NCBI GenBank assembly: GCA_017443585.1
Contig: JAFSYV010000151.1
Span: 1-45,202 of the forward strand
Origin: Lentisphaeria bacterium
Lineage (GTDB): Bacteria > Verrucomicrobiota > Lentisphaeria > Victivallales > Victivallaceae
Length of the DNA stretch: 45,202 nt
Direction: 5' to 3'
Below, in pieces: positions 9,907 to 20,163 of the stretch (position 1 is the stretch's first letter; every line of letters begins with the position of its first letter). The notes under the pieces were generated by a model, which was given only the letters and a program-made list of their open reading frames with translations, did not search any database and had not been told where the DNA came from. A program made the position numbers and the translations under genes.

Positions 9907-12900
9907 TCACTCCGGAGAGGATCCGGCGGCCGGCGCAGCGTTTTTCGGCGGGCGTCCCCGCTTGCCGGAGGTTTTTTTCTTCGCTCCGGAAGTTGAAGAG
10001 GGTTCGCGGGAAACGGAAACGACCCCGGCTCCGGAGAGCATCCCCATGCCGCCGCTGTTGGTGACGTCGATCCGGGTCTCGATGCGGTCCTTGAGCTTTT
10101 CCACATGGCTGATGACGCCCACCAGCTTGCCGCTGGACGAACGGAGGTTGCTCAGCAGCTCCAAAGCGCTGTCCAGGGCCTTGTCGTCCAGGGTGCCGAA
10201 CCCCTCGTCCAGCAGCACGTTGCCCAAACTCGCCTTCTGGCTGATGCTGCTCATTTCGGAAAGTCCGAGGGCCAGCGCCAGACTGACTTCGAAGGACTCC
10301 CCGCCGGAAAGGTTCCGGGCGGTCCGCTCCAGATCGCCCCGATAGTGATCGATGACGTTCAGTTCCAGAAGCTCCGTTTTGCTGCCGACCAGCGTGAAAT
10401 GCCGTTTGAGCACTCCCAGCCGGTTGCGGTTGGCCAGCGTGACCAGATTGCGGAAAGTGTACCACTGCGCGATCCGGGTGAAGCGCGAGCCGTCGGCGGT
10501 CCCGAAATGGTCGTCCAGATACCGCCAATCCCGGAGCTGCTGCTCCATCTCTTCGGCCTTTTTCCGGGCTTCGGCGAATTGACGTCTGTTGTCTTCGTCC
10601 CGCCCGATAGTCAGCTTGAGGGACTCGACCTTGCCGCCGGCCTGCTTCACCGCCTCCTCCTGTCGGGAAAGGTCGGCGAGGACCTCCTCCTCACTGGCGC
10701 CCTCCGGCAGTTTCTTCCTCATTCCCTCGAGATTTTTGCTCCGTTCCTCATACTTGACCCTGGCCCCGTTCAGGCCCGAATCGAGTTCCCGCAGTTCCGT
10801 TTCCAGCGTTTCCCGGTCCTCGAAACTCATCAACTTGCTCGCGAAGGCCTCTTCGTCGGCGAATTTTTTGAGCAGCAGTTTGCTGCGGAAAGCTTTCTCC
10901 GCCTCTTCGCGGGCGGGACGCAGCTCCTCCTGCAGTTTCCGGGTCAGACTTTCCCGGAATTTCCGGTTCTCCTCCGCGGCGGCGGCGGCCCGCGCCGCCC
11001 GCCGGGTCGCCGAATCGAGTTTTTCCCGAGCCTGCGTCTCGCGGACACTCAACGCCTTTTCCGCCGCATCCGGATCCCCGTCGAATTTGTCCTTGCGGCT
11101 CCGGACCAGCGCCTCCGATTCCGATTTCAAAGCTGCGAAACGCTCCTCCAGCGCCTGGACCGTCTTCGTGTCGACGGGCTCCAGCTCGTCGAAGAGCTTT
11201 CTTGCGTTTTCGTAGATCTTCCGGCCCTCTTCGCGCCGGGCCGTCTTCTCGAGCGCACTCTTGCAGGCGTCGATCCGCTGCTGCAGTTCCGGCGGCAAAG
11301 CGGCGTGATCGGTCCACTGCGCTTGAAGCGCCGCTTCGAACTCTTCGGCGAGGCTCCGGGCGGCGGCCCCGGCGGCGTTCCCGGCCTCCGCCAGGTGCTT
11401 CCGGATCTGCTCCAGATCCGCCTGAAGCCGGGCGATCTCCCGCTCCAGGGTTTCCCGCTGATGCCGGCTGTTCAGGGCCTGTTCCATCAGTTTCACGGAA
11501 TCGGCATTTCCGGCGTCGAGGAGCCGCTTCTCTTTCTTGAGTTCGGAAACGATTTTCTGGAGACGTTCGAATTCCTGTTCGCACAGGTTTTTCCGCATCT
11601 CGGTGCCGCTGAAGAGCGGGTGGTCGAGGGAGCCGCAGAGAGGACACGGGGCGCCCGGCCGGAGCCTCTGCCGTTCCTCCTCATACGAGTCCGCCTTCCG
11701 GTAGAAATCCCGGGAATCGCGGACGTTGTTCAACTGCTGCTCGACCTCTTCTTCGGTATGACCGCCGAGCAGGTCCTTTATCCTCGATTCGATCTCCTGC
11801 AGGCGCTGCCGATGAAGGGCCTCGGCCTGAGCCGCCTGCGCTTCCTGTTCCCGGAGCGGAGCCAATTCCCCGCGCCGTTGATCGAGTTCCTTTTGCCGCG
11901 CTTCGGCCTTCTGCCGCTCTTCGGAAATCGCTTTTTCGGCCTCGACCAGATTCTGCCGCCGCTCCTCCCACACCGCCCGGCGGTGCTCCAGCTCGAGATC
12001 GGCGGCATGTTCGGCCAGGTATTTCCGCGCCTGCTCGGAATCGGCTTCGACGGTGCGCCACTTCTCTTCCTCGGCCTGAAACGTCCGGAGATGTCGGCTC
12101 CGCGTCTCCCGAGCCGAGGTCAATTCCTGCGCCGTCCGCTCGAGGAGCGAAGCCTTTTCCCGGCACTGGACATCCAGCTCGCGGACTGCCTTGAAAAGCG
12201 CCTCGCTTTCGGCCCGTTCCCCGGCGATCTTCCGCACGGCCTCTTCGGCTTCGCGGCGTTCCGCTTCGAGTCCGGAGGCGTTCTTCTGCATCACCTCGCT
12301 TTCGCGGATCCGCTCGGCCAACTCCTTTTCGGCATTGCCGACCTCTTTGCGGGCCTGCCCCAGAGCCTGAAATTCCTTCTGGCAGTCGTCGGCGCGTTTG
12401 GCGTCATCCAGGCGGATCCGCGCCGGTGCGGCATCGGCCTCCCGGCGGCGGAAGGAATCCAGCGCCGCGGCGGCTTCCTTCACCTTGGCCTCGCCCTCGC
12501 GGATGTCGATGAAGGTCTGCCGCCGGAGCGCCAGATCCCGGAGGCTCTCTTCCAACTCCTGCCGGTGCTGCAGCGCGGCGGCCAGCTGCCGATCGAGTTC
12601 GGCCCTTTTCTCTTCCGGCAACAGGGCGATCTCCTCGTTCGCTTTTCTCTGCGCGCCGTACTCGGCGTTGAGGGTGCGGTACTCCTGATTGATACGGGCG
12701 CCGAGGGTGCCGTAGATCTCGGTCCCGGTGATGCTGGAAAGGATCTCGGAGCGCTCGTCCAGCGGGGCCTTCAGGAAGGCGTCGAAACCGCCCTGCGCCA
12801 GCAGCACGCACTGGGTGAACTGCTTCGCATTCAGCCCGATGAGCCGGGTGATCTCCTGCTCGAAATCCCTCTTCATGCGGGTGACTTCCCGGTCACCGCA

Positions 12901-14520
12901 GTAGAGATGCTGCCGGCTTTCGCCGAAGGGAACCTGGGCATCGGCCCGGCCGGTTTGCTTATGGTAGAAGCATGCGCGGTATTCGAGCTCCCCCAGCGAA
13001 AAGGTCAGCTCCGACGAGAGTTCCTTTTCCCCCTTGCTCATGATCTCGTCGCGGTACTTGGTGGGTTTCTCCGCACGGGGCGTACGGCCGTAGAGCGCCA
13101 GACAGATCGCGTCGAGGATACTGGATTTCCCCGCTCCGGTATCGCCGGAAATGAGGAAGATCCCGTTCCGGAAGGCCGGGTCCTCGAAATCGATCAGGTG
13201 CTCCCCGTAGAGGGAGTTGACGTTCCGGAACCGGAGACGCTTGAACTTCATGATGCCCCGCGGCGCGGCGGGAACAGGCTGTTCCGACTGAGCGGCGGGC
13301 TCCAGGACCTCGTCCTGGATCCTGCGGTAGGCGGCGATGATCCGCTTCTTCTGTTCTTCGGAAGTCAAATTCGGATCGGCGTCCAAAATTTCCATGAACA
13401 CCTCTTCCGGCGTCATTTCCGAAAGCATCCTGTCGGAAAATTCCGCGGGAGCTTCCTCCTTTTCGGCGTCGGGACGGCAGACCTCGGGGTGGATGATCTG
13501 CACGTCGGTGTTGCGCATTTCCAGCCGCAGGTCGATCTGCCAGGTGGGCTGGACCTCTTCGCCCGTGTAGATCGGCTTGACCCAGACCGGCTTCTTCTCG
13601 GCGGCCAGGTCGGCAAGCTGACGGCGGAGCTCCTTCATATCGCCTTCGATGACGCGCATCCTGTGGAAACACGTCTCCGGGATCTCGACGCCCCGCGGAT
13701 GGGCAGGATCCTGCGTGTCCAGCAGGATCACCTGGGGCGCGTACATATTTTTCCGCAGCTGCATCTTGAGCAGGGAACCCGCATAGCGCCACCGGCTGTG
13801 GCCGGGTACGCTCTGGGGCTTGTGGATATGGCCCAGGGCTCCGTAGGCGACCCCCTCCGGCATTTTTTCCAGATCCAGCGCCTCCAGAGTTCCCACCGTC
13901 TCCGCGTCGCCTTCCCGGTTGACGGCGAAGCTGCTGCCCATCGCATAGAAGTGCCCCATGGCGATGATCGGGATGTTCCTTCCGGCACGACGGCGGTCGG
14001 CCAGGTCGTATATCTTCCGGTAATGGGCGATGATGCCGGAACCGAGTTCGGAACTCTTCTGCTTCGCATCCTCTCCTTCCGGAACCGAAGCGCGCACGTC
14101 GCGTTCCCGCAGGAAGGGGACCGCGCAGACGATGGCGGCGGGATCTTCCGCCGGGCCCAGGGAGATCACCTCCTGTTCCGGATGCGCCGGATCGGGCCGG
14201 CCGACAAGGTAGATTTCCATCAGCTGGAGCAGATTCTGCGGCGCTTCCAGAAAATTCGCGTTGTCGTGGTTGCCGGCGATGGCGATGATCTGACGGCATC
14301 CGGCGGCCCGCAGGTGCTGCAGGAAATCGAAATACAGCGTCTGCGAATCCACCGAAGGCGTTCCGCTGTCGAAGACGTCTCCGGCGAAAAGCGCCGCCTC
14401 CACGTGTTCCTTTTCGGCCAGGCCGGCCAGAAAGGCGAAAACCTTCTCGAACTCCTCATGCCGCCGCTGGTTGTCCAGAGTGCAGCCCAGATGGATGTCG
14501 CCGATATGCAGGATCTTCAT
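9907..14520 (-). CDS. SbcD-SbcC (Mre11-Rad50) fusion: nuclease and SMC-like ATPase in one chain
   Basis: 1537 residues in one frame. Residues 1-423 are a complete SbcD/Mre11 nuclease: GDIHLG (Asp8, His10), GDVFD (Asp48), GNHD (84-86 region), MGHFY and ALGHIH, the phosphodiesterase metal ligands. Residues 424-1537 are a complete SbcC/Rad50 ATPase: MKFKRLRFRNVNSLYGE start, Walker A GDTGAGKS (459-466), QFTQCVLLAQGGFDAFLKA, two long coiled coils around a zinc hook CPLC (Cys959, Cys962), LSGGES signature near 1400, and Walker B VLLDEGFGTLDD near 1435. In most bacteria these are two adjacent genes whose products form a heterotetramer that opens hairpins and protein-blocked DNA ends. No stop or shift occurs at the junction. 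The tail ends with KRGRPPK (1520-1526), resembling an AT-hook. The start has a GAGGAAA site and a good promoter. Confidence 0.93.
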   Translation of the reverse strand: MKILHIGDIHLGCTLDNQRRHEEFEKVFAFLAGLAEKEHVEAALFAGDVFDSGTPSVDSQTLYFDFLQHLRAAGCRQIIAIAGNHDNANFLEAPQNLLQLMEIYLVGRPDPAHPEQEVISLGPAEDPAAIVCAVPFLRERDVRASVPEGEDAKQKSSELGSGIIAHYRKIYDLADRRRAGRNIPIIAMGHFYAMGSSFAVNREGDAETVGTLEALDLEKMPEGVAYGALGHIHKPQSVPGHSRWRYAGSLLKMQLRKNMYAPQVILLDTQDPAHPRGVEIPETCFHRMRVIEGDMKELRRQLADLAAEKKPVWVKPIYTGEEVQPTWQIDLRLEMRNTDVQIIHPEVCRPDAEKEEAPAEFSDRMLSEMTPEEVFMEILDADPNLTSEEQKKRIIAAYRRIQDEVLEPAAQSEQPVPAAPRGIMKFKRLRFRNVNSLYGEHLIDFEDPAFRNGIFLISGDTGAGKSSILDAICLALYGRTPRAEKPTKYRDEIMSKGEKELSSELTFSLGELEYRACFYHKQTGRADAQVPFGESRQHLYCGDREVTRMKRDFEQEITRLIGLNAKQFTQCVLLAQGGFDAFLKAPLDERSEILSSITGTEIYGTLGARINQEYRTLNAEYGAQRKANEEIALLPEEKRAELDRQLAAALQHRQELEESLRDLALRRQTFIDIREGEAKVKEAAAALDSFRRREADAAPARIRLDDAKRADDCQKEFQALGQARKEVGNAEKELAERIRESEVMQKNASGLEAERREAEEAVRKIAGERAESEALFKAVRELDVQCREKASLLERTAQELTSARETRSRHLRTFQAEEEKWRTVEADSEQARKYLAEHAADLELEHRRAVWEERRQNLVEAEKAISEERQKAEARQKELDQRRGELAPLREQEAQAAQAEALHRQRLQEIESRIKDLLGGHTEEEVEQQLNNVRDSRDFYRKADSYEEERQRLRPGAPCPLCGSLDHPLFSGTEMRKNLCEQEFERLQKIVSELKKEKRLLDAGNADSVKLMEQALNSRHQRETLEREIARLQADLEQIRKHLAEAGNAAGAAARSLAEEFEAALQAQWTDHAALPPELQQRIDACKSALEKTARREEGRKIYENARKLFDELEPVDTKTVQALEERFAALKSESEALVRSRKDKFDGDPDAAEKALSVRETQAREKLDSATRRAARAAAAAEENRKFRESLTRKLQEELRPAREEAEKAFRSKLLLKKFADEEAFASKLMSFEDRETLETELRELDSGLNGARVKYEERSKNLEGMRKKLPEGASEEEVLADLSRQEEAVKQAGGKVESLKLTIGRDEDNRRQFAEARKKAEEMEQQLRDWRYLDDHFGTADGSRFTRIAQWYTFRNLVTLANRNRLGVLKRHFTLVGSKTELLELNVIDHYRGDLERTARNLSGGESFEVSLALALGLSEMSSISQKASLGNVLLDEGFGTLDDKALDSALELLSNLRSSSGKLVGVISHVEKLKDRIETRIDVTNSGGMGMLSGAGVVSVSREPSSTSGAKKKTSGKRGRPPKNAAPAAGSSPE

Positions 14521-14562
14521 TACCGTTTTCCTCGGGGTTATGATCTATGTTGTTCCGGGTAT

Positions 14563-14591
14563 AATATAACCGGCGGACTGCCGTTTTGCAA
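14563..14591 (-). promoter_or_regulatory. Predicted promoter of the sbcDC fusion
   Basis: On the minus strand TTGCAA (14586-14591), a 17-base spacer and TATATT (14563-14568) form a good sigma-70-type promoter, 42 bases before the start codon. An inverted repeat, CCGGCGG (14570-14576) with CCGCCGG (14592-14598), covers the spacer and brackets the -35 box. It may be the end hairpin of the upstream ankyrin-tailed gene, an operator, or both. Confidence 0.6.
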
Positions 14592-14604
14592 CCGCCGGAA
14601 AATC

Positions 14605-15687
14605 TCAGGAGCTCTTCAAGTTGGTCAGCCACTCCGGTTCCAGGCTTTCGTCCAGGAGGGCCGTGCAAGGCTGTTCCGTGCCCAGCGGCGAATGGCCGTT
14701 GCGGCAGTTCGCCAGGTGACGCTGCCGCAGCAGGCGTTTCTTTTGGGAAAGGCTCAGACCGGTCAGCATCCGGCGCCACGAGAGCCCCAGTTGATTCTCG
14801 TTTTCCGGATCGCATCCGTGTTTCAGGAGAAAAGGCGTGAGACGGCAAAAGGGATGAAAGAAGGCCGTCCTGCGGTTGGCCGCGGCATACCAGAGCGGAT
14901 TCCGCCCCCAGTCGTCGCGGACATTTTTCAGGATGCCGGGGAACTTCCCCTCCACAATCTCCAGCAGGGGGATGCTGACGGCGTCTTCCAGCTGCGATGC
15001 GCAGCAGACGCACAGCTCCTCCGGGGGAATCACATGCTCGAAGACCTCGCCGCCCTTGACCAGCTCCGCGAAGATCTTCGCGGCCCCCTTCCGCATGATC
15101 TCCACGAGCAGACTGTAGGAAAGATTCTTGCCGGACATGTCCCGGTAGATCATGAAGGTCTCGGCGTTGTCGTCGGCGATGGCCTGCCGCATCCGTTCGG
15201 GCATTTTCTGAAGCGCGGCGCGGCGCCCGGCAATATAGCGCAGGATCTCCCAGCCGGGCTTCCGCGCTTCGCTGTACGTACGGCAGACCAGCGGATTGTC
15301 GATGAGCATTTCGTCGGTGAGGGGCAGTGTCCAAAGCAGTTCCGGATCCGGAGCGACGGCGACGGTGTATTCCCGCCCCTTGATGATACGGGGCTCGGAA
15401 ACGAGCAGACCGCCCCGGTCGATCATGCAGGAAAACCAGAAGTGAAACCTCTCGGGAGCCGGAATGTGTTCCCGCAGCTGAAAGATCCGCTTCCAGAAGT
15501 TGAAACGGTAGATGGGTTCGATCCGGCTGAAGAGTTTCCGCAGGGACATGGCGGGTCTGGCGGTCTTGAAGATCAGGTCCGCAGTCTCTTCGGTGAGCAG
15601 TCCGTCGATGTCACTGAAAGGTCTCTTTTCGTCCGCGGCGGAGCTGGAGATTTTCTTCAGCGCCGCCAGTTTTTCCGTTGCGTTCAT
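14605..15687 (-). CDS. Ankyrin-tailed protein of unknown function (copy A)
   Basis: 360 residues, no signal peptide or membrane segment, so probably cytoplasmic. I do not recognise a named family for the first 240 residues. The C-terminal part has an ankyrin-like pair: [16 protein letters not shown] followed by [21 protein letters not shown], which matches the ankyrin pattern of a TPLHxAA-type helix and a LLxxGADPN-type turn. A paralogue lies at 21460-22602; the C-terminal 100 residues are nearly identical while the N-terminal parts have drifted. A conserved EELCVCCASQLED segment precedes the ankyrin part in both. The ATG at 15687 was chosen because GAGGAGGG sits just upstream; an open frame continues further but has no coding character. 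It probably acts through protein contacts; the partner is unknown. Confidence 0.75.
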   Translation of the reverse strand: MNATEKLAALKKISSSAADEKRPFSDIDGLLTEETADLIFKTARPAMSLRKLFSRIEPIYRFNFWKRIFQLREHIPAPERFHFWFSCMIDRGGLLVSEPRIIKGREYTVAVAPDPELLWTLPLTDEMLIDNPLVCRTYSEARKPGWEILRYIAGRRAALQKMPERMRQAIADDNAETFMIYRDMSGKNLSYSLLVEIMRKGAAKIFAELVKGGEVFEHVIPPEELCVCCASQLEDAVSIPLLEIVEGKFPGILKNVRDDWGRNPLWYAAANRRTAFFHPFCRLTPFLLKHGCDPENENQLGLSWRRMLTGLSLSQKKRLLRQRHLANCRNGHSPLGTEQPCTALLDESLEPEWLTNLKSS

Positions 15688-15781
15688 AAGCCCTCCTCTT
15701 CGATTTTCGAAATTGCCTTCTCCCGTTTTACCGCGCCGCCCTCGCCGTTTTTTCAGGAAATCGGAGGGCCTTCGGATTTTT

Positions 15782-16411
15782 TCACGCTTTTGGCCGGAAA
15801 TCCGCCTCTTCGCGGAACCGGCAGGCGCGGATCCGCTGAAGGGTGCGCCCGGAGATCTTCCCGTAGTATGGCATACACCGCCAGCACTCCGGATGCTCAT
15901 GCCCGCCGGCGGTGAAAACCACGTAACTGTCGTCGCTCCAGTCCAGCCCCATTTCGTGTCCGAGTTCCCGGATCCTCTCCCGATACCAAACGTCGGTGAG
16001 GGGCAGTCCCGCGACGAGACACGGGACGATCCGGCCGTATTCCCAACACCAGGCGGCATCCCCGATCTTCAGGGGGACCGTTTCCGCGGGCCTGCCGCGG
16101 AAAGGCTTTTCTCCGGCATCGTCGTAAGGACTGTCGCAGTAAAGGGCCCCGTCGGGAAAATAGGACCGGACGGACTCGAATTCGCAGACGGCCCCGGAAT
16201 CCCCGGTCAGGCCCCGGTTGAGGGTCTTCTCGAAGATGATGAAGCAGTGAAACGCGTAAAAACGCTTCTCCCGGTCGATGATCCGCTTCATGAAGGTCTC
16301 GGCCTTTTCGACGGAATCGAAGATGCCCAGTTCCCGCTCGAAAGCGTCGTACGACCCGTCGGCGTGCTTATTGCCCGACCGCGATACGGATCTCAATTCG
16401 AAAAGCTGCAT
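15782..16411 (-). CDS. Hypothetical protein, 209 residues
   Basis: I recognise no family. The protein is soluble and rich in aromatic residues, without signal peptide or membrane helix. The N-terminal half reads MQLFELRSVSRSGNKHADGS then a GIFDSVEKAETFMKRIIDRE helix, which looks like a small alpha/beta sensor- or adaptor-like unit. The C-terminal half contains LPLTDVWYRERIRELGHEMG and a Cys/His pair region GGHEHPECWRCMPYYGKISG that could bind metal. The ATG at 16411 follows a GAAGGAAA site. It lies between the LRR gene (60 bases upstream) and ankyrin-tailed copy A (94 bases downstream) on the same strand, so it may share their transcript. Confidence 0.6.
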   Translation of the reverse strand: MQLFELRSVSRSGNKHADGSYDAFERELGIFDSVEKAETFMKRIIDREKRFYAFHCFIIFEKTLNRGLTGDSGAVCEFESVRSYFPDGALYCDSPYDDAGEKPFRGRPAETVPLKIGDAAWCWEYGRIVPCLVAGLPLTDVWYRERIRELGHEMGLDWSDDSYVVFTAGGHEHPECWRCMPYYGKISGRTLQRIRACRFREEADFRPKA

Positions 16412-18575: not shown

Positions 18576-18604
18576 AATATAGCCTTCCGGAAAAACTTTT
18601 TCAA
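18576..18604 (-). promoter_or_regulatory. Predicted promoter of the LRR gene
   Basis: On the minus strand TTGAAA (18599-18604), a 17-base spacer and TATATT (18576-18581), followed by AT, form a good sigma-70-type promoter about 50 bases before the LRR start codon. It has the same TATATTAT core as the promoters of sbcDC and fabD. Confidence 0.6.
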
Positions 18605-18615
18605 GATGGCTGAAT

Positions 18616-18858
18616 TTATTTTTCTTTACTGAGGTAATAATGTTTTATCTCCTCAATATTCAGTTGCTCCGGGAAATTCTTCTTCGGTAACAACATTCCG
18701 CTATATCAGAAAAACATATCAGATGTTTTCAATGGAGAGGAAAGTTTCACCTCATCATCATTCCACACAAGCGGAAAACAAACTTCCGCCTTGACCTGTT
18801 TCTTGTTTTTCTTAAACACTCTATTCCCATTTAAGGGAGATATTTTTATGGCACGTCA
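18616..18858 (-). pseudogene. AT-rich stretch with decayed reading frames
   Basis: This 343-base gap between the 74-residue gene and the LRR gene has no intact gene. Two short frames on the minus strand have coding-like composition. One (18706-18858) reads KISPLNGNRVFKKNKKQVKA and ends SSPLKTSDMFF. The other (18616-18696) reads MLLPKKNFPEQLNIEEIKHY and ends YLSKEK. They overlap in different frames, as expected for one gene broken by a frameshift or deletion. No family is recognised. The low GC content contrasts with the genes around it. Confidence 0.3.
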
Positions 18859-18868
18859 AAAATCAGAT

Positions 18869-19093
18869 TTACAAATACTTCATGGCCATACCCGAAGCGA
18901 CTACTTCTGGTTCCCAATTCTCTTCGTAAAACTCCAGAAAGTCTGTTTCGTATTCCTTCATCAAATCATTCGCTTCCTGAATAGTATAGTTCTGATACTT
19001 CAACAAACAATCGTAAACCAGTTTCTTGTAATCTTCCAGAGAGATTACTTCTTTGAGGATTACTTCCCTTTCCTTTTTGATTTCCTCTGCCAT
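18869..19093 (-). CDS. Small acidic hypothetical protein, 74 residues
   Basis: A short helical, acidic protein starting MAEEIKKEREVILKEVISLE and ending EPEVVASGMAMKYL, with many Glu, Tyr and Leu residues. An excellent ribosome binding site (AAGGAGAA, 6-7 bases before ATG) supports that it is a real gene. GC content is much lower than that of the core genes, and it lies in an AT-rich patch with gene remnants, both signs of recent acquisition. No function can be assigned from the sequence. A frame running the opposite way over the same bases is rejected. Confidence 0.6.
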   Translation of the reverse strand: MAEEIKKEREVILKEVISLEDYKKLVYDCLLKYQNYTIQEANDLMKEYETDFLEFYEENWEPEVVASGMAMKYL

Positions 19094-19185
19094 TTGATTT
19101 CTCCTTATGTTTATTTATGGGTGAACCACTCTGCCCTTTCTACGTCCAATGAAATCCAGGTCTTAATGGCGATTTATGCTATGGG

Positions 19186-19383
19186 TCATATATATACCTT
19201 CCCAAAACCTAACTTGCTATCCTTATCGCCATTCTGTTCAAATCGATGCAATTCAACTTGTTTTTTATGAAATTGCTTTGATTTATCTCCCCAAAATGGG
19301 AACAGAGCGTTCTTAAAAAATCCAAACATCTTCAAAACCCTTTCTTTGTCGAATGTCTTTGTGGAATTATCGTTGAAAAATAT
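19186..19383 (-). pseudogene. Remnant of a second DUF2442-like gene
   Basis: On the minus strand this stretch reads IFFNDNSTKTFDKERVLKMF, which matches the TVFFNDDSTKTYDVKDRIF core of the intact gene at 19420-19758 directly upstream. The copy has no N-terminal half, and its C-terminal part (FFKNALFPFWGDKSKQFHKK to a TGA at 19186-19188) no longer resembles the intact protein. The DNA match is plain: TTTGTGGAATTATCGTTGAA here against TTTGTGGAATCATCGTTGAA in the intact gene. It looks like a partial tandem duplication that then decayed. A 47-residue frame starting at an internal ATG could still be translated. Confidence 0.5.
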
Positions 19384-19419
19384 TCCCCGATATGCGCAAG
19401 TCGATACGGATCGATATGA

Positions 19420-19758
19420 TTATTTTCCGTGAATGTACAGTTCATAGGATGAAATATCCGTATCATCATCCCATCTTACCGCCCATCCGCATTCTTCCGC
19501 TTTTTTGAATTCATTGATGTCCTGCAGCTTCTTGAACCATGAGTAATCAGGATTGTCCCTGTTGAAGATCCTGTCTTTAACATCGTATGTTTTTGTGGAA
19601 TCATCGTTGAAAAATACCGTCAACGTGTAGTCATCATTTGCAATGATTCTTCGAATTTCAGTAATTACATCAAAGTCATTTTCCGGGCTCCAGGGTTTTG
19701 ACAAGTCAACTGCTCCCGAAGCCGTGATGTTCGATGCCGGTTCTTTTTTATCGCTCAT
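19420..19758 (-). CDS. DUF2442-like protein
   Basis: 112 residues. The middle and end fit DUF2442: DDYTLTVFFNDDSTKTYDVK, then WFKKLQDINEFKKAE, and the C-terminal GWAVRWDDDTDISSYELYIHG, which is the WxxGxDISxxxLY pattern of the family. DUF2442 proteins are small and uncharacterised; they often occur near DUF4160 proteins in mobile or toxin-antitoxin-like settings, but no DUF4160 gene is seen here. The ATG overlaps the end of the upstream membrane-protein gene by 11 bases and is preceded by GAGGAGAAAG. GC content is low for the window. A decayed partial copy follows at 19186-19383. Confidence 0.75.
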   Translation of the reverse strand: MSDKKEPASNITASGAVDLSKPWSPENDFDVITEIRRIIANDDYTLTVFFNDDSTKTYDVKDRIFNRDNPDYSWFKKLQDINEFKKAEECGWAVRWDDDTDISSYELYIHGK

Positions 19759-19927
19759 GGTCTTTCTCCTCGACTATGTTGCCGTTTTGCAGAAAACCGA
19801 TGACGAATGAATCCCAAAAGAGATGCAGCACAACGGCCACGCCGTGGAGGACCATTCCCACGGCCCGGAGAGGGAACAGAACCGGCGCGGCGAGAATCCC
19901 GGGTACTGTTCGCGAGAACTTTTTCAT
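19748..19927 (-). CDS. Small membrane protein with the FWDSF domain (short form)
   Basis: 59 residues: a basic N-terminus MKKFSRTVPG, a long hydrophobic stretch, then HLFWDSFVIGFLQNGN and a charged tail. It matches the first 50 residues of the protein at 20201-20713: both have xVPGxL, a PLxAxG turn, and FWDSF after the hydrophobic part. It is therefore either a stand-alone membrane domain or a truncated paralogue. The ATG at 19927 overlaps the stop of the upstream Cys-rich gene (ATGA), so it is translated by coupling. An upstream in-frame ATG just after AAGGA (residues MSLQ) is an alternative start. Function unknown. Confidence 0.6.
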   Translation of the reverse strand: MKKFSRTVPGILAAPVLFPLRAVGMVLHGVAVVLHLFWDSFVIGFLQNGNIVEEKDHER

Positions 19928-20163
19928 TTGCAGAGACATTCCTTTTCGTTCAGGATGTAAATATGCACCTTTTCGAAATCTTCTTTCGAAACAGGCTCCC
20001 GGCTTTCCCGGCACCACGGATGGCCGAAACTGCGGGGCGTGTTGGCACACATGTAACCGTTGTTTCCCCATACCTCATGAAACAGAAAACGACATTGTCT
20101 GCAGGTTTCGAAATCACGGATTACGGGCAGCTCGCCGAATTTGCCCGCACACTCTTTCTTCAT
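19924..20163 (-). CDS. Small Cys-rich hypothetical protein
   Basis: 79 residues with seven Cys: one near the N-terminus (KKECAGKF), a CRQC pair, then MCAN and HPWC, and KECLCK at the C-terminus. The spacing suggests a zinc-binding fold. The central segment ETCRQCRFLFHEVWGNNGYM is compact and aromatic. I know no family for it. The ATG at 20163 has a GGAGAG site. The stop overlaps the next start by 4 bases, and the upstream gene ends 37 bases away, so it belongs to the clpP-side run of small genes. Confidence 0.6.
   Translation of the reverse strand: MKKECAGKFGELPVIRDFETCRQCRFLFHEVWGNNGYMCANTPRSFGHPWCRESREPVSKEDFEKVHIYILNEKECLCK

Follow-up and report, generated by a model that had tools for sequence, protein, structure and literature searches.

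SbcD, a nuclease, and SbcC, an ATPase, are the bacterial counterparts of Mre11 and Rad50 and make up a conserved enzyme for the processing of DNA breaks. One gene on the reverse strand of the window, the whole stretch of 45,202 nucleotides of Lentisphaeria DNA that was analysed, appeared to carry both parts in a single chain. This raises the question of whether the enzyme is made as one polypeptide in this lineage, and of where such a chain came from.

The fused reading frame and its occurrence

The features of the gene, all on the minus strand, are as follows.

9907..14520 (-): sbcDC fused gene; single frame, ATG start, 1537 aa, stop codon at 9907-9909
13309..14520 (-): SbcD part, residues 1-404; phosphodiesterase, capping domain and C-terminal helices (NCBIfam, phmmer, motifs)
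13309..13428 (-): retained SbcD C-terminal helices, residues ~365-404 (aligned with LSELSVEEVF of E. coli SbcD)
13252..13308 (-): added linker of ~19 residues, 405-423 (comparison of fused homologues)
13249..13251 (-): Met424, the former sbcC start codon, now internal (codon comparison, anti-SD energies)
10039..13251 (-): SbcC part, residues 424-1494; ABC ATPase halves, coiled coils and zinc hook (NCBIfam)
13123..13146 (-): Walker A GDTGAGKS, residues 459-466 (motif location)
11635..11646 (-): zinc hook CPLC, residues 959-962 (motif location)
10297..10311 (-): ABC signature LSGGE, residues 1404-1408 (motif location)
10201..10218 (-): Walker B region, residues 1435-1440 (motif location; PF13558)
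9910..10038 (-): basic C-terminal tail, residues 1495-1537, with an AT-hook-like KRGRPPK (sequence)

The open reading frames of the window were read, and the sbcDC frame from 14520 down to 9907 had no internal stop in 1537 codons. The SbcD part matched NCBIfam PRK10966 over residues 1-380 and also TIGR00619, the latter above its curated cut-off (152 vs 77.65), and phmmer aligned residues 1-390 to 6s6v_A. Its phosphodiesterase carries every metal-binding motif (DIHLG at residue 8, GDVFD at 47, GNHD at 83, GHF at 189 and GHIH at 230). The SbcC part matched PRK10246 (E=9.9e-102) and TIGR00618 (E=1.8e-83) over residues 424-1494; these matches were full length, yet they stayed below the strict NCBIfam cut-offs (281 vs 478; 342 vs 750). 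It contains Walker A (459), a CxxC zinc hook on coiled coils (CPLC, 959), the signature LSGGE (1404), Walker B (1435), the D-loop (1442) and the H-switch (1470). Pfam matches in the fused protein were Metallophos, AAA_23 and SbcC_Walker_B, and its top PDB matches by phmmer were SbcC (E=1.7e-77) and SbcD (E=1.2e-39) of E. coli, in structure 6s6v. The first-pass annotation had described a nuclease with all phosphodiesterase motifs, followed in frame by a complete Rad50-type ATPase, and both the motifs and the family matches bear this out. These results suggest that the fused protein should function like SbcCD, as a single-chain variant of it. The tail of the G005 fused protein reads RRGRPKK, and Lys-rich tails were found in most of the other fused homologues.

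Two other features of the window were seen. An unusually long open frame of 1936 codons lies antisense to sbcDC (10105-15915, +) and most likely just reflects high-GC codon usage. A low-GC stretch at 18600-20100 (42-50% against ~62%) holds short ORFs of 74-112 aa beside a BspA-type LRR gene, and it was perhaps recently acquired.

It had also been proposed to search for one-chain nuclease and ATPase architectures and to place them on a tree. This search was run in the class, and the fusion was found in 10 of 198 Lentisphaeria-class genomes, as open frames of ~1300-1590 aa with no stop at the junction. The fused set comprised G000 (the window genome), G005 and G009 from the window's family, G130 and G136 from a second family of the same order, and G087, G103, G105, G113 and G114 from a family in a different part of the class. 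Eight of the ten genes are complete within one contig; in G005 and G136, the contig ends within SbcD and leaves the junction intact. G118 looked fused from the length of its open frame, but codon 432 is a stop, and it was left out. Outside the Lentisphaeria class, no fusion besides that of G327 was found in the phylum sample of 388 genomes, and no phage or plasmid record covered >=80% of the fused query in one place. One frame, full-length family matches and nine further genomes with an unbroken junction thus agree with the earlier reading of the gene as a natural single-chain SbcD-SbcC.

The window genome is 4.13 Mb in 371 contigs, 92% complete, with an estimated contamination of 7.45%. It has one sbcDC locus, a single SbcC_Walker_B match and a single SbcD above cut-off; two further matches to the SbcD models, elsewhere in the genome, are weaker and below cut-off. 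A second SbcD above cut-off was not found in any of the ten fused genomes (83-96% complete), and G136 has one additional SbcC-like ATPase besides the fused gene. In the window genus, SbcCD is patchy: no match was found in 24 of 34 genomes, and the others were fused, in-frame split or diverged split.

The junction, the former SbcC start and the linker

Met424 is encoded at 13251-13249, and a GGGG lies 5-8 nt upstream of it. We therefore considered whether the fused genes give, besides the fused chain, an extra free SbcC initiated at Met424. The ATG at the old SbcC start is kept in 8 of the 10 fused genes, so weak internal initiation is conceivable there; G114 has CTG and G087 has CTC. Anti-SD duplex energies were computed at positions −20 to −4 upstream of starts. 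Mean pairing was −3.5 kcal/mol at the ten internal SbcC positions. It was stronger at the sbcC starts of 17 split pairs (−7.6 kcal/mol, p=0.0026), and nine sbcD starts, eight in fused genes and one in the split G118, averaged −6.5 kcal/mol. The internal SbcC positions did not differ from 179 internal ATGs (mean −3.0 kcal/mol, p=0.28). Pairing at the old SbcC start of G005 was −6.6 kcal/mol, which together with the GGGG of the window gene speaks for some internal initiation. Against it, G087 has no ATG, GTG, TTG or CTG between −45 and +15 codons around the junction. In the in-frame split relatives G011, G020 and G027, a stop codon stands 3–6 codons ahead of the sbcC ATG, and this ATG has a ribosome site.

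A separate SbcC product from the fused genes is unlikely, because they lack a ribosome site at this position and G087 lacks a start codon near the junction; we gave the dual product a low probability. Of the internal start suggested by the first-pass annotation, the GGGG before Met424 is present, and the start itself is weakened. Since G087 has no usable start near the junction, at least this one member can, judging from the sequence, only be a single chain, and the same most likely holds for the other fused genes.

The linker had been placed at about residues 385-423. In this study, we found that it is shorter, ~405-423, because residues ~365-404 still belong to the C-terminal helices of SbcD, which read LSEMTPEEVF… in the window protein and match E. 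coli LSELSVEEVF. It has been reported that the equivalent region of Mre11 docks on the Rad50 coiled-coil root (PMC3175470). A Pro-containing motif is conserved after the helices (V-x-[DE]-P in most fused homologues). P408 and E413 are invariant among eight fused homologues, and the rest of the linker sequence is free. From the Pro motif to SbcC strand 1 there are 16–19 residues, a length that is nearly constant across the fused homologues. The pN/pS ratio was 0.7–1.0 across the linker, whereas the nuclease core and the heads of SbcC gave 0.2–0.5; these are rough estimates, with synonymous sites near saturation and a linker of 24 codons. As the length is nearly constant while the sequence is free, the linker would behave as a tether.

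It may also be considered that the single chain is a precursor, translated whole and then cleaved in the linker to give an ordinary SbcC2D2. The almost unconstrained linker sequence resembles an exposed loop open to a protease. However, no conserved cleavage motif was found beyond the Pro-containing motif and the Glu, and a length held at 16-19 residues is unneeded for cleavage. We regard a cleaved precursor as even less probable than the dual product. For the uncleaved, tethered chain, the distance can be compared with a known structure. In T. maritima the gap from the Mre11 C-terminus to the Rad50 N-terminus is ~28 Å, and bridging it needs 9–12 residues (Yoshida et al. 2011, PMC3175470). Because of this, the 16–19-residue tether should be long enough for docking in cis.

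Descent and proposed transfer of the fused gene

A tree was built from SbcD together with both halves of the SbcC head (44 rows and 805 columns) and repeated with 26 rows. The ten fused genes formed one clade on a long stem, with support of 100/100. When the tree was rooted on E. coli, this clade joined a clade of split Lentisphaeria pairs (98/96); the split pairs of G011, G020 and G027 have 31-32% identity to the window protein. Rooting on the viral fusions instead shifted the root to the fused stem. This root was given little weight because the viral rows lie on branches of >4 changes per column. The root of the fused clade is uncertain, and its derivation from a split pair would rest on the E. 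coli outgroup and the anatomy of the junction. These results suggest that the fusion probably arose once in a Lentisphaeria lineage. In the simplest origin that we infer, the sbcD stop codon, a few codons upstream of sbcC and in frame in several relatives, would have been lost, and the short intergenic stretch would have turned into the tether.

The gene could instead belong to the viral or plasmid lineage of Mre11-Rad50 fusions (Mimivirus R555-like) and have been acquired from a virus. The domain order is identical, the root may lie on the fused stem, and such fusions are common in viruses: in 27 viral contigs (27 of 80 loci, L117-L196) one ORF spans the Mre11-like and Rad50-like parts, non-canonical in type and consistent with the published description (PMC3175470). 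However, profiles of the fused clade gave 236/182/174 bits on E. coli SbcD/SbcC and at most 60/57/35 bits on the viral fusions. A search of the Deferribacter megaplasmid with PF13476 yielded no candidate, and one with PF00149 led to ORF L115, which, judged by content only, is probably the published Deferribacter fusion; the profiles gave no more than ~6 bits on this metallophosphatase-domain ORF. Given these scores, together with the long viral branches, acquisition from a virus is very improbable. Because the fused-clade profiles score E. coli SbcD/SbcC far above the viral and Deferribacter fusions, we assign the window protein, from its sequence, as a canonical-type SbcCD in single-chain form. 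An artefact of sequencing or binning can be dismissed almost entirely: all fused-gene genomes are draft assemblies, apparently metagenomic, and the window genome has the contamination given above, but the unbroken junction is common to ten assemblies that form one clade, nine of them besides the window's, which rules out a local assembly error, and the single-copy ArgS on the same contig is nearest to the same genus.

The fused genes of the window genus (G000, G005 and G009) did not group together. G000 paired with G130 and then with G136, of another family, and a constraint holding the three together was rejected (p-AU 0.00016). In the window, ArgS lies 1.1 kb from the end of the fused gene. 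It is nearest to that of same-genus G011 (83%, compared to 64% for G130), and G011 carries a split pair with 31% identity to the window protein. Among the matches listed, no flanking gene was common to the fused loci. This conflict between the gene tree and the genome classification suggests that the fused gene was passed as a unit from one family of the class to another; mis-binning in some of the other MAGs may be an alternative source of the conflict.

A further sbcD-sbcC fusion candidate was found in G327 (L070, contig 89), from another class of the phylum, and was placed elsewhere on the tree. Its SbcC begins 'GRVAARIFSVELANLNSLKG', without ATG. We regard it as a second, independent but fragmentary candidate, and a less certain one, because its SbcD part is interrupted by a run of N, the frame changes once more further downstream, and 36 codons upstream of the SbcC start there is an ATG that has a fair ribosome site.

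Proposed working and comparison with known enzymes

We hold with good confidence that the locus encodes a canonical-type SbcCD nuclease as one SbcD-linker-SbcC chain, with a probable single origin in Lentisphaeria and a presumed tethered homodimer as its active form. Two SbcDC chains would pair into a homodimer that corresponds to SbcC2D2. Within each chain, the C-terminal helices of SbcD would sit on the coiled-coil root of SbcC, just as they do in the split enzyme, and a tether of 16-19 residues would span from these helices to SbcC strand 1, a gap of ~28 Å in T. maritima Mre11-Rad50 (PMC3175470). Hairpin and blocked DNA ends would then be trimmed or cut under ATP control, with the subunits forced into a 1:1 ratio. 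We also favour, with clearly more reserve, a wider reading in which the lineage swapped its two-gene SbcCD for an obligate single-chain homodimeric SbcDC of canonical type that spread between families, with at least one more fusion, that of G327, being a separate event in another class. A natural single-chain SbcDC would have a fixed stoichiometry and could therefore serve directly as a tool for single-molecule and structural studies of nuclease repositioning at DNA ends. It would also show that subunit dissociation is dispensable.

The fused layout had been presented as unusual, which was overstated. Yoshida et al. described 13 Mre11/Rad50 or SbcD/SbcC fusions in 2011, all outside the canonical clades, in Mimivirus (R555), a Deferribacter megaplasmid, a C. 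kluyveri plasmid, Bacillus phage 0305phi8-36 and some eukaryotes (PMC3175470). Except for Deferribacter, the cellular hosts of these fusions also keep a normal split pair (PMC3175470). The window protein is like them in having the nuclease and then the ATPase in one chain, an Mre11-like and a Rad50-like part, with a linker between the Mre11 C-terminal helices and Rad50. Unlike them, it is of canonical type: it groups with the split SbcCD and E. coli, far from the viral fusions, although the root is uncertain. Nor was a separate canonical pair found beside it: the ten genomes gave no other SbcD above cut-off, with one more SbcC-like ATPase in G136. A published account of a single-chain SbcDC in Lentisphaeria was not found in the open-access literature searched, and a canonical-type fusion that seemingly stands in for the split pair is absent from the 2011 survey (PMC3175470). 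What is new here is a canonical-type fusion that seems to have taken the place of the split pair.

The in-frame split Lentisphaeria pairs (G011, G020 and G027) are alike in having sbcD and sbcC adjacent and in one frame, and they fall in the neighbouring clade; they differ by the stop codon and ribosome site between the two genes. The canonical E. coli SbcC2D2 (6s6v, 6s85, 7yzo) shares with the fused protein all domains and motifs, the E. coli-type profile matches and the order sbcD-sbcC. That enzyme is a heterotetramer of two kinds of subunit, whereas here a single ORF, with no internal start signal and no second SbcD above cut-off, gives one polypeptide, in which a linker of ~19 residues joins the two parts and a basic tail forms the C-terminus.
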